Shown: piece by piece, positions 11,096-18,951 of the stretch
Position numbering within the stretch: position 1 is the first letter of the stretch
Layout of the letters: each line of letters opens with the position of its first letter
From: Frateuria defendens
GTDB lineage: Bacteria; Pseudomonadota; Gammaproteobacteria; Xanthomonadales; Rhodanobacteraceae
DNA length: 64,000 nucleotides
Assembly: GCF_001182895.1 (NCBI RefSeq)
Contig: NZ_LFQR01000004.1
Span: 1-64,000, forward strand
Direction: 5' to 3'
Position numbers and translations under genes: made by a program
Notes under the pieces: model-generated
What the model saw: the letters and a program-made list of their open reading frames with translations, nothing else
Told to the model about the DNA's origin: nothing
The model's database searches: none

Positions 11096-13516
11096 TCAGA
11101 AGAACGAGGCGCCGAAAGTCAGCATCACCGCGCGCGTCTGCAACACCTTGTAGACGGCGGGGTTGCTCACCGCCACCGCGGCGCCGCTCGAATCCACCGC
11201 GGTGCCGGAGGACTGGAAATCGCCCACTGTGTCGGCCGCCGCCAGCGCCTTGCGGCTGAACAGGTTGGACACGTTGAGGCGGATGTACGGCTTGCGGAAG
11301 TCGGAGGAGAAATCCGCGAAGTTCCAGCCGGCGTTGAGGTTCACCGTGGTGTAGCCGCCGAAGCGCTCGGTGTTGGCCCAGTCCGCCCACTGCGAGCCGG
11401 TGTAGCGCGTGTTGAGGCTGGCCCAGAACGGCCCCTGGTTGTAGTTCAACGTGAGGTTGGCGAGGTTGCGCGGCGTGTTGACCAGGGTCTTGCCGTCGGT
11501 GGCGTAGGTGATGGTGGTGCCGGCCGCGCCGCCCGGGCCGACCATGTCGGACTTGTTGGTGGCGTGCGTGTAGGCGTAGGAGCCGTAGAGCTTCCAGTTC
11601 GGCGTGAAGGCATAGCTCGCCTCCGCATCGAGGCCGCTGGTCTTGGCCTTGGGCAGGCTCACGTAGAGGGTGCTGGCGGGCATCGCCGGGTTGCTGCCCG
11701 ACACCAGGCGGTTCTTGAAGTTGGTGGTGAAGGCATCCACGCTGGCCGACACGCTGTCGCCGTAGAAGCGCCAGCCGAGGTCGGCCGTCCACGCGGTTTC
11801 GGGCGAGATCTTGCTGCTGGGCGACAGCGCGCCGTTCAGGGCCGCGGTGGCGGTAGGCGCGCGGAAGGTCTGGCCCAGGCTGGCGTAGAACTGGTTGCGG
11901 TCGTCGAGCTGGAACTTCACGCCGCCGTTGGGCGTGAGCTTGTGGAAGCTGCGATCCACCGGGCCGCCGGCCTGGAGCGTGGTGCCGGGGTTGAGGTATT
12001 CCCAGCCCTTGCGGCTAGCCCACAGGTAGGCCGCGCCCAGGGTCACCGTCCATTGGTCGTTGGGCGTCCAGGTGTTGGTGGCGAAGAGCTTGCGCGTCTC
12101 GGCCGTGGCGTAGGTCTCCAGGCCCTTCTCGATGCGCCCGCCGGGCAGGCGGATCACCGCGGGATCGGTGTCGGCCCAGTAATCGGCCGGGATGCCGCTG
12201 GCCTGGTCCACCGGCGTGGCCTTGGTGCCCTGCTGCTGGCGCGGGCGGTCGTACCAGAAGCCGTATTCCAGGCTGTCGTTGAGGCCCAGGTCCTGGTTGA
12301 ACTTGACGATCACGCCGGGGCGGAAGGTGTTGGAGTAGAAGAAGCCGTAGCCCACGCCCACCTCGCCCTCGCGCACCACGCCGTTGCCGCTGGCGTCCTG
12401 GTTCACGTAGGGGTAGCCGAGCTCGGTCGAGGGCGTGGTGGATTCGAACAGCGGCACGCCGAAGCCGCCGCCGCCGTAGCCGTACTGGAAGTAGGGCACC
12501 ACCGAGAGGTGCAGGCTGTCGGTCAAGGTGAACTCGCCGTCCACGCTGGCCGTCCAGCTCATGAAGGGGTCGGTCTGGTACTTGTAGTAGTCCAGGTTGT
12601 CGAACGGCGAGGCGCTGGGGTCGTAGACCTTGTCGTAGCCCTGGTCGTACTTCTGCTGCGCCTGGGCCTTGGTCAGCGGCTGGTAGTTGATGCGGAACTC
12701 GCGCGCGAACTGCAGCGAGGCGGCGATGGAGTTCTTCTCGTCGATGGTCCACACCGACTTGCCGTCCACCTTGGTCACCTTCATCTTGCCGCCGCCGCGC
12801 CACAGCGAGGCGGTGTTGTTGGAGTAGGAAAACCACGAGCGCACCGGCCCGGTGTCGCCGGTGTTGAGGCGCACGAAGCCGCGCCGGTAGTCGTTGCTGC
12901 CCACGCCCGCGCTCACGTCCAGCCCGGCCTTGTGCGAGGGCATCAGCGACACCCACGCCACCGAGCCGCCGACCGCCGCGGCGGTGGCCATGTCCACGTC
13001 GGGGAAGCCCTGCGTCACCGTGATGTCGCCCATGTTCTCGGTGTCGCCGTACTGGGTGGCCCAGATGGCGTAGTTGCCGGCGTCGTTCACCGGCGCGCCA
13101 TTCACGGTGACGCCGATCTCGTCGGCGTAGAAGCCGCGCATGGTGAACTGGCCGTCGTTGAGGCCGGTGGCATCCACCGTGGCCGTGTTGACGCCCGGGA
13201 TGGTCGCCAGCATCTGGGTGAAGTTGGAGCTGGAAGGCGCCTGCGCGATGGCCTCGCGGGTGACGGTGGAGACCGCCTTGGGCGCGTCCTGCGTGGTCAT
13301 CAGGCCGCCGCCCAGCGTGGGCGACTGGCCCGACACGCTCACGCCCTGCATCTGCTGCACACGCTTGGTGTCGTTGGAGGTGGTGGTGTTGGAGGTGCTG
13401 AACACGCTGCGGCGGGCGGCCGGCTTGCCGTCCCCCTGCGCGTCCTGGGCCGCCGCCGTGCCGGCCGCCGTACACAAGGCGATCGCGATCGCCGCCGCCA
13501 GATGCCTGCTCTCCAT
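11096..13516 (-). CDS. TonB-dependent outer membrane receptor
   Basis: This 806-residue receptor has a signal peptide cut after AAA-QD, then a 40-residue Ser/Thr/Asn-rich lead with a TonB-box-like GVSVSG. The plug domain follows (APKAVSTVTREAIAQAP to about residue 180, including MRGFYADEIGVTVNGAPVNDAGNY), then a 22-strand-type barrel ending in a C-terminal Phe (LTFGASFF). It imports an unidentified scarce nutrient using TonB energy. ATG 13516 is preceded by GGAGACGAGGA. It stands alone, with no inner-membrane transporter or regulator beside it. Plug and barrel are complete. Confidence 0.92.
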   Translation of the reverse strand: MESRHLAAAIAIALCTAAGTAAAQDAQGDGKPAARRSVFSTSNTTTSNDTKRVQQMQGVSVSGQSPTLGGGLMTTQDAPKAVSTVTREAIAQAPSSSNFTQMLATIPGVNTATVDATGLNDGQFTMRGFYADEIGVTVNGAPVNDAGNYAIWATQYGDTENMGDITVTQGFPDVDMATAAAVGGSVAWVSLMPSHKAGLDVSAGVGSNDYRRGFVRLNTGDTGPVRSWFSYSNNTASLWRGGGKMKVTKVDGKSVWTIDEKNSIAASLQFAREFRINYQPLTKAQAQQKYDQGYDKVYDPSASPFDNLDYYKYQTDPFMSWTASVDGEFTLTDSLHLSVVPYFQYGYGGGGFGVPLFESTTPSTELGYPYVNQDASGNGVVREGEVGVGYGFFYSNTFRPGVIVKFNQDLGLNDSLEYGFWYDRPRQQQGTKATPVDQASGIPADYWADTDPAVIRLPGGRIEKGLETYATAETRKLFATNTWTPNDQWTVTLGAAYLWASRKGWEYLNPGTTLQAGGPVDRSFHKLTPNGGVKFQLDDRNQFYASLGQTFRAPTATAALNGALSPSSKISPETAWTADLGWRFYGDSVSASVDAFTTNFKNRLVSGSNPAMPASTLYVSLPKAKTSGLDAEASYAFTPNWKLYGSYAYTHATNKSDMVGPGGAAGTTITYATDGKTLVNTPRNLANLTLNYNQGPFWASLNTRYTGSQWADWANTERFGGYTTVNLNAGWNFADFSSDFRKPYIRLNVSNLFSRKALAAADTVGDFQSSGTAVDSSGAAVAVSNPAVYKVLQTRAVMLTFGASFF

Positions 13517-13805
13517 TCCTCGTCTCCCCCGCGCATGCGTGAACCCGTCCGGTCGGCGCGTCCCCGCGGCCGACGAAAACCAAGCTAGCGGCCCTGTCAC
13601 CGTTTTGCCACAGCAAGTTTTTGCGATGCAGCATCCGGTCACGTTTTGGAAAAACCTCGCCAACCACGGCACGGCCAGCCCTTCCATCGCCAGCGCCCGA
13701 GCCATGTCGCTACGAAAATGTGCGCTTGCGGCAACATGCCGCCTCGCCGCCCCGCGGCTTGGCCTGGCCGTGTAGACGTCCGTCCGCCGCATGCCGGCCG
13801 GCCTA

Positions 13806-13852
13806 TTGACTACATGTGTAGTCAAGGCGTAGCGTGACTACACACGTAGTCA
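13806..13852 (+). promoter_or_regulatory. Two BlaI-type operators over the blaI-M56 promoter
   Basis: Two inverted repeats lie directly upstream of blaI. TGACTACATGTGTAGTCA (13807-13824) is a perfect 18-bp palindrome, and TGACTACACACGTAGTCA (13835-13852) is symmetric except for its centre. Both carry the GACTACA/TGTAGTC half-site that BlaI/MecI/CopY regulators recognise. Their centres are 28 bp apart. A TTGACT -35 candidate (13806-13811) overlaps the first. A dimer on each should shut the operon. Confidence 0.85.
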
Positions 13853-13865
13853 CGGAAACCTCCCC

Positions 13866-14252
13866 ATGTCCAAGCCCTCCATCGGCGACCAGGAGCTGGC
13901 GCTGCTGCACTACCTGGCCGAGCACGAACCGGCCTCGGTCGGCGAAGTCGCCGCGGATTTCGGCGAGGCGCGCGGCATCGCCCGCTCCACCGTGCTCACC
14001 ATGATGGAGCGCCTGCGCGCCAAGGGTTACCTCAAGCGCCGCCAGCTCAAGGGCGTATACCGCTACAGCACCGCCACCGGCCCCGGCGAGGCGATGCGCC
14101 GCGCGGTGGGCAGCTTCGTGGAGAAGACCCTGAGCGGCTCGGTGTCGCCCTTCGTGGCCTGGATGGCCGAGCGCGGCAAGGTCAGCGACGAGGAACTGGC
14201 CGAGCTGGAATCGCTGGTGGCCAGGCTGCAATCCGGCCGCAAGGGGAAATGA
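13866..14252 (+). CDS. blaI: BlaI/MecI/CopY-family repressor
   Basis: This 128-residue winged-helix repressor has the family layout: an N-terminal DNA-binding domain (IGDQELALLHYLAEHEPASVGEVAADFG ... STVLTMMERLRAKGYLKRRQ) and a C-terminal dimerisation helix. In the known Bla/Mec systems the repressor is inactivated by proteolysis when a partner M56 sensor protease is triggered, and that partner follows here 1 nt after the stop. Two operators cover the promoter. No beta-lactamase gene is nearby, so the regulated function is probably broader or distant. Confidence 0.93.
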   Translation: MSKPSIGDQELALLHYLAEHEPASVGEVAADFGEARGIARSTVLTMMERLRAKGYLKRRQLKGVYRYSTATGPGEAMRRAVGSFVEKTLSGSVSPFVAWMAERGKVSDEELAELESLVARLQSGRKGK

Positions 14253-14253
14253 C

Positions 14254-16248
14254 ATGGCGACGCTCGATCAGCTCTCGTCCCTGCTGCTGACGCGACTGGC
14301 CTGGTCGTCGCTGCAGGCGGCCGTGCTGGTCGGCGTGGTGGCGCTGCTGGTGCGCCGGCTGCCCAGGCTGCCGGCCGCCGTGGGCGCCATGCTGTGGTGG
14401 CTGGTGGCCTTGCAGGGCGTGGTCGGGCTGGGCTGGCATGCGCCGCTGGCGTTGCCGCTGCTCGCACCGGCTTCGGCGCCCACCGCCGCCTCGCCCGCCG
14501 GCACTGAGCCGCCCATGCGCGCCGATGCCATGGCCGTGGGCATGCCGTCCCGGCCGACGACCGCGGCGCCCACCGCCTCCGTGCCGGCCTCGCCGCCGCG
14601 CGCCTCCGCCGCCACCGAGCGTATGGCGCGGCCGAGCTTCGCCCCCGCCGACCACTGGCGCACCGCCCTGGCCGCGCTGTGGCTACTCGGCGTGCTCGCG
14701 CCGTTGCCGCTGTGGCTGCGGCAGGGCTGGCGCACGCACCGCCTGCTGTGCGAGGCGGCGCCGGTGGCCGATCCACGGCTGCGCGCGCAGTGCATGGCGC
14801 AGGCGAAGGCGCTGGGCCTGCGCCGCTGCCCGGCGTTGCGCGCCTCGCCGACGATCCGCTCGCCCCAGGTGGCCGGGTTGTGGCGGCCGACCGTGCTGTG
14901 GCCCGCCGCGTCCGCCTTGAGCGCCGAGGAATCGGCCATGGCGCTCGCCCACGAGCTGGCCCACCTGCGCCGCGGCGACCTGTGGCTGGGCTGGCTGCCG
15001 GCGATCGCGCAGCGGTTGTTCTTCTTCCACCCGCTGGTAGCCTGGGCCGCGCGCGAATACGCCCTGCACCGCGAGGCCGCCTGCGACGCGCTGGCGACGC
15101 GCGAGCTGCGCGCCGCCCCGCAGGACTACGGCCGCCTGCTGCTGCGCCTGGGCGTGGCCCGGCCGCTGCACGCCGGGCTCGCCGGCGCGTCGCCCACCTT
15201 CCGCAACCTCAAGAGGCGCCTGACCATGCTGCAGCAGACGAACGAGACGCCGCGCGCCCGCGGCTGGGTGCTGGTGGCGCTGGTCGCGCTGGCCGGCGTG
15301 CTGCCCTACCGGCTCACCGCCGCGCCGGAACCCGCGGCGACCGCGGCGCCGGCCGTCGCCGCCACGGCGCAGGCGAACCCCGTGCCGCGCGCCGCCGGCA
15401 CGCCCGCGGCTTCGCCCCGGCCCGCCGCAACGGCCGCCCGCGCCACGCCGGCCAGCCGGGCAACCTATACCGACGACACCCTCAACAGACCGCCGCCGCC
15501 GCCCGCCCCCTTGCCGCCGCCCCCGCTCGCGGCGCCGCCGGCGCCACCCGCGCCACCCTCGCCGCCAGCACCCCTGCCGGCCAGGGGCCTGGCCGGCCAC
15601 CACGTGGATATAGACGTCTATACCGACGCCGAACGCGGCTTCGCCCTGTTCGACGGCGACACCGTGATGGTGCACGGCGACGAGCACGATCTCGCCCAGG
15701 CCAGGGCATGGCATGAGCACGATGCGCCGCTGCTGTGGCTGCGCCGCGACGGCCGCGCCTACGTGGTCCGCGACGCCGCCTTCGTCCGCCACGCCCGCGA
15801 CCTGTACGCGCCGCTGACCGAACTGTCCAAGCAGCAAGGCCAGCTAGCCAGCCAGCAGGGCGCCCTCGCCGGCCGGCAGGGCGGCCTGGCCGCCCGCGAG
15901 GGCGCACTGGCCTCGCGGCGGGCCGAGCTGGAAGGCCGCCGCGCCGCCGTCGAGGCCGAGCGCGCCACCATGCAGGCTCGGCCCGACCCCACCTCGCACA
16001 CGGCGGCCAGTGCGGCGACCGACGCCAAGGCGAAAGTCATCGCCGAGCAACTCGCCGCCCTGGCCCAGGCGCGCACCGGCCTCGACGGCGAGCAGGCGAA
16101 GCTGGCGCAGCAGCAGGCGGCGCTGTCCCTGCAACAAGCCGAACTGTCCAGGCACCAGCGCAACCTCTCGGCGCAACTGGGCAAGCAGATGGATCGGCTG
16201 CTGGACGAGGCCCTGGCGAAGGGGCTGGCGCAGCCGGCCGCCCGCTGA
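14254..16248 (+). CDS. M56-family sensor metalloprotease with coiled-coil ectodomain
   Basis: This 664-residue BlaR1-like membrane protease should respond to a periplasmic signal and trigger cleavage of the BlaI repressor. Hydrophobic helices lie near residues 15-35, 43-63, 137-155 and 337-351. HELAH at 233-237 is the zinc HExxH, and REAACD at 273-278 supplies the third ligand region. The part beyond the last helix is odd. It has an Ala/Thr-rich stretch, a Pro-rich segment (412-443), a small folded-looking unit (446-515), then seven heptads with Leu/Val at 524, 531, 538, 545, 552, 559 and 566, and a second Gln/Leu coiled coil (593-655). BlaR1's penicillin-binding sensor domain is absent. The partner blaI ends 1 nt upstream. 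Confidence 0.88.
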   Translation: MATLDQLSSLLLTRLAWSSLQAAVLVGVVALLVRRLPRLPAAVGAMLWWLVALQGVVGLGWHAPLALPLLAPASAPTAASPAGTEPPMRADAMAVGMPSRPTTAAPTASVPASPPRASAATERMARPSFAPADHWRTALAALWLLGVLAPLPLWLRQGWRTHRLLCEAAPVADPRLRAQCMAQAKALGLRRCPALRASPTIRSPQVAGLWRPTVLWPAASALSAEESAMALAHELAHLRRGDLWLGWLPAIAQRLFFFHPLVAWAAREYALHREAACDALATRELRAAPQDYGRLLLRLGVARPLHAGLAGASPTFRNLKRRLTMLQQTNETPRARGWVLVALVALAGVLPYRLTAAPEPAATAAPAVAATAQANPVPRAAGTPAASPRPAATAARATPASRATYTDDTLNRPPPPPAPLPPPPLAAPPAPPAPPSPPAPLPARGLAGHHVDIDVYTDAERGFALFDGDTVMVHGDEHDLAQARAWHEHDAPLLWLRRDGRAYVVRDAAFVRHARDLYAPLTELSKQQGQLASQQGALAGRQGGLAAREGALASRRAELEGRRAAVEAERATMQARPDPTSHTAASAATDAKAKVIAEQLAALAQARTGLDGEQAKLAQQQAALSLQQAELSRHQRNLSAQLGKQMDRLLDEALAKGLAQPAAR

Positions 16249-16369: not shown

Positions 16370-16450
16370 GTAGGAGCGCGCCTTGCGCGCGACAGCGGTG
16401 TGGCAGCGTCGCTGCTGCGTAGGCTTGTCGCGCGCAAGGCGCGCTCCTAC
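16370..16450. repeat. REP-type inverted repeat (GTAG family)
   Basis: Two arms of 24 nt (16370-16393 and 16427-16450) are perfect reverse complements separated by 33 nt, and each arm starts outermost with GTAGGAGCGCG. GTAG-led GC-rich palindromes of this kind are the REP elements of pseudomonads and xanthomonads, mobilised by RAYT (TnpA-REP) proteins. It lies between the M56 gene and a convergent peptidase gene. The rest of the 370-bp gap shows nothing. No other copy is seen in this window. Confidence 0.85.
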
Positions 16451-16617
16451 GTCGGTGATGTGCCATGGAAGGAGGAGCCACGGGGGCCCTCTACTGGCCT
16501 GTTCATCCGGCGCCATCGTTACAGGCGTTGGCGACGGACGAGCCAGGATTCGCGCCGGGACGCCACAGCGGCGCGGGGGAGCGACCACCTCCCCGCGCCG
16601 CCGTCGCCGGCGCTGGC

Positions 16618-18951
16618 TCAATCCTTCGGCGGCGCCAGCTTGTACGCCACCGGCGGCGTGTCGCCGGCGAGGTAGCGCACGAAATAGTCCCAGCGCCGGC
16701 GCATGGCGTAGTAGGTGCCCTCGGTACCGTAGCCGTGGTGCACGTTGGGGATCATCAGGAGGTCGAAATCCTTGCCGGCCTTGATCAGCGCGTCGGCCAC
16801 CAGCAGCGTCTCGTAGGGCGGCACGTTGTCGTCCAGGGTGCCGTGCACCAGCATCAGGTGGCCCTTGAGGTTGGCGGCGTGGTTCTGGTTGGCCTGGTCG
16901 TCGTAGTTGCTCTTGCCGTCGGGGCCGGTGGCGAGCAGGCCCTGCCACTTCTCGGCCCAGTCGTCCTCGTAGTTGCGGTTGTCGTGGTTGCCGCTCTCGG
17001 CCCAGCCGACCTTGAAGAAGTCGGGGTAGCGGAACATCGCGCCCGCGGTGGCGTTGCCGCCGCCGGAGTGGCCCCAGATGCCCACGCGGCCCAGGTCGAT
17101 CCACGTGTAGCGCTGGCCCAGCTCCTTGATGCCGGCCACCTGGTCGGGCAGCGTGTTGTCGCCGATGTTGCCGAAGTAGGCGTCGTGGAAGGCCTTGGAG
17201 CGCCACGGCGTGCCCATGCCGTCGATGGCGACCACGACGAAGCCCAGCTCCGCCAGCGCCTGGTTGTCGCCGTGCGCGGCCAGGAAACTGCGCCCGCGCA
17301 CCGAGCCGGTCTGCGGGCCGGGGTAGATGTAGTCGACGATCGGGTACTTCTTCGACGGGTCGAAGTGGCTGGGCTTGAACAGCAGGCCGTAGAGGTCGGT
17401 CTTGCCGTCGCGCGCCTTCACCACGATGGGCTGCGGCGGCACCCAGCCGGCGGCCTTGAGGCGGCCGATGTCGGCCTTGGCCACGCCGGCGAGGGTGTGG
17501 CCGTCGCCGGCCGCGCGCAGCACGGTCACCGGCGGCGTGACGGAGGTGGAATAGGCATCGACGAAGTAGCGCCCGTCGGGCGAGAGCGTCACGGTGTGGT
17601 CGGCCGCCTCCGGGGTGAGCAACTGCGGCGCGCCGCCGTCCAGGCTCACCTTCCAGAACTGCTGGTAGTACGGGTCCACGCCCGGCGTGCGGCCCACGCC
17701 GCGGAACCACACGGTGCGGGTCTTCGCGTCCACGCGCAGCACTTCGGTGACGTTGCCCTCGCCGGTGGTGACGGCGCGCTTGAGCTTGCCGGTGTCCAGG
17801 TCATAGAGGTAGAGCTGGCCCCAGTTGCTGCGCTCGGAGAACCAGATGGCCTCGTGGCTGGCGGGCAGGTAGAACCAGTTCACCTGGCCGTTGCCGCTCT
17901 CGTAGTAGGTGGGCACGCTCTCCTCGAACGCGGTGCGCACCGCGCCGGTGGCCGGGTCGGCGAGGCGGAACCATTCGTGCTTGTGGTCGCGCGAGGTGGA
18001 GACGAAGGCCAGCGAGGTGCCGTCCGGCGCCCACTTCACGTCGTCCCAGCCGCCGTCGGGGCCGCAGCTGACGTCGTCGCACAGGGTGGAGCGGTGCTGG
18101 TCGGGCGGCATCTTGAGCCGCACCACCTTCTTCGCGGCCACGTCGATCACCACGCGCTCGATCATAGTCACGTCCTTGTCGCCCACCAGCGGGTACTTCC
18201 ACGCCTCGAGCCTGGGGTGGCCCACGTTGGTGCTGACCAGGTACATGTCGCCGGTCTTGCGCTGGTCCTGCTGGAAGGTGGCGATGCGCTTCGAATCGGG
18301 CGACCACACCAGGATCGCGTTGTCGGTGTGCTTCCAGCCGGCGTTGTCGGTGGCGTAGCCGAAGTTCTCCACCCCGTCGGTGGTGAGCGCCGTCTCCTTG
18401 CCGGTGGCGACGTCGCGCAGCCACAGGTTCCAGTTGCGGATGAAGGCCTCGCTCCGGTCGTCGGGCGAGCGCACGCCCGGCTCCTTGCCGGTCCTGGCCT
18501 GCGCGGCGCGGCCCTCGCACTTGGGCTCGGCGGCCTTGAGGTCGCACAGGTAGTGCTTGCCGCGAAGCTGGACGTCCAGACGTCCATCCGCCTCGACACT
18601 GAAATCGCGGACGCCGAGCTTGTCGGCCTTGACCGGCTTGCCCGCGGCCTGGCCGAGCGCCGCGGCGAGCTTGGCCTGGTCGAAGGCCGGCGCCGCCTTG
18701 CCGGTGGCGGCATCCATGATCCGGTAATGGTCGCCCTGGGCGTCGTGGTCCACGAACCAGAAGCGGCCCGCGTCGAGCCAGGCGACCTTCTGCACCGCGT
18801 GATCGACCAGCGGCGCGGTGCCGTAGGCGAGGAGGCGCTCGGCCTGCGCATAGTCCTGCGCGGTCAGCGTGCGCCCCTGCGCCATCGCGCCGGTCGCCAG
18901 CGCGCCCAGTGCCAGAGCGCCGAGCAGGCGCGGCTTGCCCTTCAAGATCAT
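16618..18951 (-). CDS. Secreted S9B dipeptidyl-peptidase (DPP-IV-like)
   Basis: This is a 777-residue serine exopeptidase with an N-terminal signal peptide ending AMA-QG. A beta-propeller (about 60-510) follows, with repeats such as VWSPDSKRIATF and VKWAPDGTSLAFV, and then an alpha/beta-hydrolase domain. The triad is readable: Ser near 629 in GHSGGG, Asp near 707 in HGTLDDNV, and His near 739 in NVHHGYG. It should remove X-Pro-type dipeptides from peptides in the periplasm or outside the cell, feeding peptide nutrition. GHSGGG replaces the more common GWSYGG. ATG 18951 has GAGGTGACC upstream. It is divergent from a thioesterase gene. Confidence 0.93.
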   Translation of the reverse strand: MILKGKPRLLGALALGALATGAMAQGRTLTAQDYAQAERLLAYGTAPLVDHAVQKVAWLDAGRFWFVDHDAQGDHYRIMDAATGKAAPAFDQAKLAAALGQAAGKPVKADKLGVRDFSVEADGRLDVQLRGKHYLCDLKAAEPKCEGRAAQARTGKEPGVRSPDDRSEAFIRNWNLWLRDVATGKETALTTDGVENFGYATDNAGWKHTDNAILVWSPDSKRIATFQQDQRKTGDMYLVSTNVGHPRLEAWKYPLVGDKDVTMIERVVIDVAAKKVVRLKMPPDQHRSTLCDDVSCGPDGGWDDVKWAPDGTSLAFVSTSRDHKHEWFRLADPATGAVRTAFEESVPTYYESGNGQVNWFYLPASHEAIWFSERSNWGQLYLYDLDTGKLKRAVTTGEGNVTEVLRVDAKTRTVWFRGVGRTPGVDPYYQQFWKVSLDGGAPQLLTPEAADHTVTLSPDGRYFVDAYSTSVTPPVTVLRAAGDGHTLAGVAKADIGRLKAAGWVPPQPIVVKARDGKTDLYGLLFKPSHFDPSKKYPIVDYIYPGPQTGSVRGRSFLAAHGDNQALAELGFVVVAIDGMGTPWRSKAFHDAYFGNIGDNTLPDQVAGIKELGQRYTWIDLGRVGIWGHSGGGNATAGAMFRYPDFFKVGWAESGNHDNRNYEDDWAEKWQGLLATGPDGKSNYDDQANQNHAANLKGHLMLVHGTLDDNVPPYETLLVADALIKAGKDFDLLMIPNVHHGYGTEGTYYAMRRRWDYFVRYLAGDTPPVAYKLAPPKD

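Follow-up and report, generated by a model that had tools for sequence, protein, structure and literature searches.

A BlaI-linked M56 protease of Frateuria defendens with a conserved ectodomain that differs from the penicillin-binding sensor of BlaR1

Proteases of the BlaR1 type are known above all for sensing penicillin. The two-gene locus described here lies in a 64,000-nucleotide stretch of the Frateuria defendens genome (contig NZ_LFQR01000004.1, positions 1 to 64,000; hereafter the window), and the closest known system is BlaR1/BlaI. With the BlaR1/MecR1 and BlaI/MecI proteins of Staphylococcus aureus and Bacillus licheniformis it shares a gluzincin motif with 41-residue spacing, the offset of a candidate autocleavage phenylalanine, an adjacent BlaI-family repressor and palindromic operators. 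It differs in the sensor, which is a class-D-like penicillin-binding domain in BlaR1/MecR1 and a Pro-rich stalk, a small domain and a predicted helical hairpin here, and in that no beta-lactamase was found under the operator. The BlaR protein of Mycobacterium tuberculosis (Rv1845c) is involved in the beta-lactam response although it has no beta-lactam domain (PMC5473688). An M56/BlaI switch without a beta-lactam-binding domain is thus common to that system and to ours (PMC5473688), but M. tuberculosis BlaR has no extracellular sensor, whereas the protein described here has a conserved ectodomain of about 220 residues. We found no account of such an architecture in the literature searched, the coverage of which was partial.

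The first-pass annotation of the window had described a BlaR1-like open reading frame beside blaI, with an M56 core carrying HELAH and REAACD motifs and with two perfect operators, and all of these features are present (Table 1). blaI ends at 14252 and the M56 gene starts one base after it, at 14254. The PF05569 profile covers residues 18-326 of the M56 protein with 150.3 bits against a curated cut-off of 31, and the HEXXH...E zinc site is complete (H233, H237 and E274). In S. aureus BlaR1 the zinc ligands are H201, H205 and E242, and the autocleavage residue is F284 (PMC9834060). The distance from H233 to E274 is 41 residues, the same as from H201 to E242, and F316 lies 42 residues past E274, matching the position of F284 past E242. 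F316 is invariant among the 16 aligned proteins. Self-cleavage at F316 and cleavage of BlaI at W99-M100 are positional candidates. The M56 protein misses the equivalog cut-off of the NCBIfam model blaR1_generic (66 bits versus 400). BlaI scores 86.2 bits against PF03965 (cut-off 22.6), and this profile match together with the palindromic operator places it in the BlaI/MecI family. Its best PDB match is S. aureus BlaI (1sd4, E 9.4e-6), and it is 75-83% identical to the BlaI proteins of relatives.

Table 1. Features of the blaI-M56 locus. Coordinates refer to the window, residues to the M56 protein.
Feature	Position	Strand	Evidence or remark
blaI, BlaI/MecI-family repressor, 128 aa	13866..14252	+	PF03965 E 2.6e-24
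BlaI operator 1, TGACTACATGTGTAGTCA	13807..13824	.	exact 18-bp palindrome
BlaI operator 2, TGACTACACACGTAGTCA	13835..13852	.	exact 18-bp palindrome; 28 bp from operator 1
Probable blaI promoter, -35 TTGACT (13806-13811), weak -10 TAGCGT (13830-13835), 18-nt spacer	13806..13835	+	conservation
BlaR1-like M56 membrane metalloprotease, 664 aa	14254..16248	+	PF05569 E 8.8e-44; hydropathy peaks
HELAH zinc motif, residues 233-237	14950..14964	+	invariant in 16 aligned proteins
REAACD, residues 273-278, with third zinc ligand E274 and D278	15070..15087	+	spacing shared with S. aureus BlaR1
F316, candidate for the P1' position of an autocleavage site	15199..15201	+	placed by offset from E274
Pro-rich spacer, residues 356-445	15319..15588	+	29 of its 90 residues are Pro
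Predicted small beta-beta-beta-alpha-beta-beta-alpha domain, about residues 449-517	15598..15804	+	AlphaFold2; profile A3
Predicted hairpin helix 1, residues 519-574, bearing heptad residues 524-566	15808..15975	+	AlphaFold2; conserved Q/L at core positions
Predicted hairpin helix 2, residues 580-655	15991..16218	+	AlphaFold2; conserved Q/L register; C-terminal EA...G.A motif

The operator consensus across relatives is TGACTACANNTGTAGTCA, and a spacing of 27-28 bp is kept in 71 of the 74 distinct operator-pair sequences collected. The blaI promoter was placed by conservation, because a generic sigma-70 promoter scan gave no promoter at blaI. The -35 box of this probable promoter overlaps operator 1, and the sequence TTGAC at the operator edge, which fits a -35 box, is kept in all 40 of the relatives' blaI promoters compared. 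The operator also follows the ectodomain in its distribution: among the 100 Rhodanobacteraceae genomes common to both samples, tallied by hand, a perfect operator is found in 48 of 74 genomes with the ectodomain and in none of the 26 without it (p 7e-10, an optimistic value because the genomes are related).

The motifs SxxK, SxN and KTG are absent from residues 356-664 of the M56 protein, and no Pfam match above threshold was found in this region. This agrees with the earlier view that the sensor is not a penicillin-binding domain, the C-terminal half showing no family match to a beta-lactam sensor. AlphaFold2 models the ectodomain as the small domain followed by two long helices, at about residues 519-574 and 580-655, with a mean pLDDT of 88. 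Modelled alone, the small domain is weaker (pLDDT 75), and its best fold match (Z 4.3) is not convincing. The helices superpose on antiparallel hairpins with Z of 10-13, a range that is common for long helices according to the tool. The first-pass annotation had read this half as a Pro-rich spacer, a small domain, seven consecutive Leu/Val heptads and then a second coiled coil. Its first three elements hold as described; the fourth holds as a second long helix, but the superposition suggests that it is the return arm of the same structure rather than an independent coil. The model thus favours one antiparallel helical hairpin, with each of the two coiled coils forming an arm. EmrA (4tko) superposes by its hairpin with Z 12.0 at 2.1 A over 124 residues, which is a generic resemblance, as values of Z below about 13 are common for long helices. 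No Pfam match to the EmrA/MacA adaptor families or to their lipoyl and beta-barrel domains was found in the window protein or in the 19 aligned ectodomains. A PDB search with the single protein sequence recovered nothing at E 0.1. The PDB matches of the profile (26 rows to E 1, best 0.029) were proteins such as keratin and designed antiparallel coiled coils, which heptads would be expected to draw, and they were set aside.

We propose that the two genes, blaI and M56, together constitute an autoregulated switch, in which BlaI bound to the two promoter-overlapping operators would repress blaI-M56. The M56 protein has hydropathy peaks at residues 15-33, 41-59, 137-155 and 339-357, and would span the inner membrane four times with the zinc protease in the cytoplasm. 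Beyond TM4, the Pro-rich stalk, the small domain and the antiparallel helical hairpin would be periplasmic. The input would be a changed contact between the ectodomain and a second protein of the periplasm or envelope; in relatives that have them, this partner might be a module copy or an ABC permease. The signal would then pass via TM4 to the protease, leading to the cutting of BlaI and derepression of the operon. We infer the M56/BlaI part of this mechanism from BlaR1 by homology. A working sense-and-cleave switch is likely, and the gene encodes a membrane protease that probably cuts the repressor of its own operon upon a change in the envelope. That such a switch takes its input from a periplasmic protein contact or the state of the envelope, and not from beta-lactam acylation, is the reading we favour with moderate confidence. 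A family that spans the order and carries another, conserved periplasmic input lets one ask what else the protease switch senses; the operator, recognizable from its sequence, and the secreted copy of the sensor in relatives both aid that question, and the clean operator is a ready reporter for signal hunting.

The switch might still answer beta-lactams indirectly, via cell-wall damage or peptidoglycan fragments; a precedent is M. tuberculosis BlaR, which appears to respond despite having no sensor domain (PMC5473688). The genes found under the operator make this unlikely, as no beta-lactamase or cell-wall gene was seen there in the source genome or at the unlinked sites of relatives. The first-pass annotation had proposed a search for further copies of the 18-bp operator to find the regulon. 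Pattern searches of the source genome (99.9% complete, 333 contigs) turned up no additional operator, also when the 14-bp core was allowed one mismatch, and the single extra site with two mismatches equals the level of a reversed-pattern control. Likewise, no operator was found before a beta-lactamase or PBP2a-type gene in the source genome. As the operator occurs there only before blaI, the switch looks mainly autoregulatory in this genome. In relatives, perfect BlaI-type operators unlinked to M56 precede an alpha/beta hydrolase gene (L111:3280 and L112:3431) and an acetamidase-like gene (L131:4193 and L132:4488), and another (L133:378) stands before an unassigned ORF. The source genome also carries a second blaI/M56 pair (G000:C127:2742-3515, locus L001), the product of which has a different C-terminal half without such heptads.

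The small-domain profile matched 4 of 370 genomes class-wide, all four of them in Xanthomonadales, and 131 of 298 genomes within that order. The ectodomain was thus found only within the order, and the named relatives belong mostly to Rhodanobacter, Dyella and Frateuria. Among the 83 distinct proteins with the small domain, 66 contain M56 and 17 do not (of the latter, L051 and L069 are truncated at contig ends and not classifiable), and five have two units. The unit stands twice in one M56 chain in L006, L007, L016, L073 and L074. In L061-L064, a module copy with a signal-peptide-like start is encoded directly after the M56 gene; the signal peptides of module copies were judged by eye. In seven loci of one genus (L065-L067 and L076-L079), the domain is missing from the M56 protein, which keeps a different helix-rich tail, and one or two secreted module copies follow its gene. 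Two loci, L068 and L070, carry a module copy with no link to M56 in the sequence retrieved; each copy has a BlaI-type operator pair of its own, the two sites showing 1 and 2 mismatches in L068 and 0 and 2 in L070. Judging from these gene arrangements, the module changes context: it occurs as a fusion to M56, twice within such a fusion, or as a separate signal-peptide-bearing protein. Such secreted copies, in the operon or with their own operators, would also fit an operon whose output is the hairpin protein itself, a periplasmic structural or scavenger protein gauged via the M56 fusion. The source genome, having only the autoregulated operon, would then make the M56 protein with its ectodomain as the main product. 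We consider this improbable, as most of the genomes with the domain show a single copy of M56-fused size, and the different tail kept in the seven split loci suggests that the receptor cannot do without its own helices.

Of the inputs suggested by the first-pass annotation, sensing of a partner protein gains support from the secreted module copies of relatives, which belong to the same operon or are preceded by the same operators; sensing of cell-wall spacing, also suggested there, is speculative. Because the module is reused both as part of a receptor and as a secreted protein, protein contact is the most likely kind of signal. More tentatively, the module may serve as receptor ectodomain and, in relatives, as a secreted product of the regulon, with M56 reading by contact either the soluble counterpart or a MacB/FtsX-type permease touched by the module; we regard this as possible but doubtful, and if it holds, the input of a BlaR1-type protease would be contact between proteins. 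Two MacB/FtsX-type permease genes lie downstream of the M56 gene, in the same direction, in 12 distinct loci of relatives, a context shared with MacA/MacB. At one of these pairs (L008:7018-9612), no ATPase gene was seen beside the permeases. In the window, the operon has no MacB/FtsX-type permease gene beside it; paralogues are encoded elsewhere in the source genome, and the contigs bearing them have no operator site. No secreted module copy was found in the source genome and no permease adjoins the operon, so the partner suggested by the relatives may not apply here. In BceS/BceAB-type modules, a sensor histidine kinase is paired with a transporter. The M56 locus of some relatives similarly encodes a signal protein beside FtsX-type permeases, but with a protease/repressor switch in place of the histidine kinase, and any physical coupling is hypothetical.

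The heptads of the window protein are exact, with Leu at positions 524, 531, 538, 545, 552 and 559 and Val at 566. A Leu/Val run of this length occurred in 3 of 20,000 shuffles of residues 518-655, and for the ectodomain as a whole, where the longest run is 8, the figure was 0 of 20,000 shuffles. The 19 related ectodomain units that were aligned have invariant Gln and Leu residues alternating at 3- and 4-residue steps, and a/d positions account for 14 of the 17 conserved helix columns (p 6e-6, which is optimistic because the register was picked after seeing the data). Values of omega for the hairpin range from 0.09 to 0.27 in eight pairs of relatives, which indicates purifying selection. The heptad region thus does not vary at random among relatives, which is what would have spoken against the earlier reading. 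A 21-bp tandem repeat (15847-15912, 3.1 copies) lies inside the heptad region of the DNA, and slippage may have lengthened the heptad array in part. That the heptads are a neutral low-complexity expansion without function, as this repeat and the stretch lengths of 118, 125, 132, 139 and 146, which could come from 21-bp slippage, might suggest (the ladder is suggestive only, with 6 of 23 distinct lengths in one class modulo 7), is very improbable in view of the low omega, the Q/L invariance across genera and the a/d enrichment.

The gene of a TonB-dependent receptor upstream of the operon (11096-13540) was considered as a divergent target and rejected, as no match to it lies near the operon in 22 related loci. 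A convergent gene for an S9-type peptidase (16618-18900, minus strand) follows the M56 gene, and a gene of this type lies nearby in 15 of the 22 related loci. Just past the M56 gene, at 16370-16453, inverted copies of a GTAGGAGCGCGCC-type sequence were noted by eye; they resemble a dispersed repeat.
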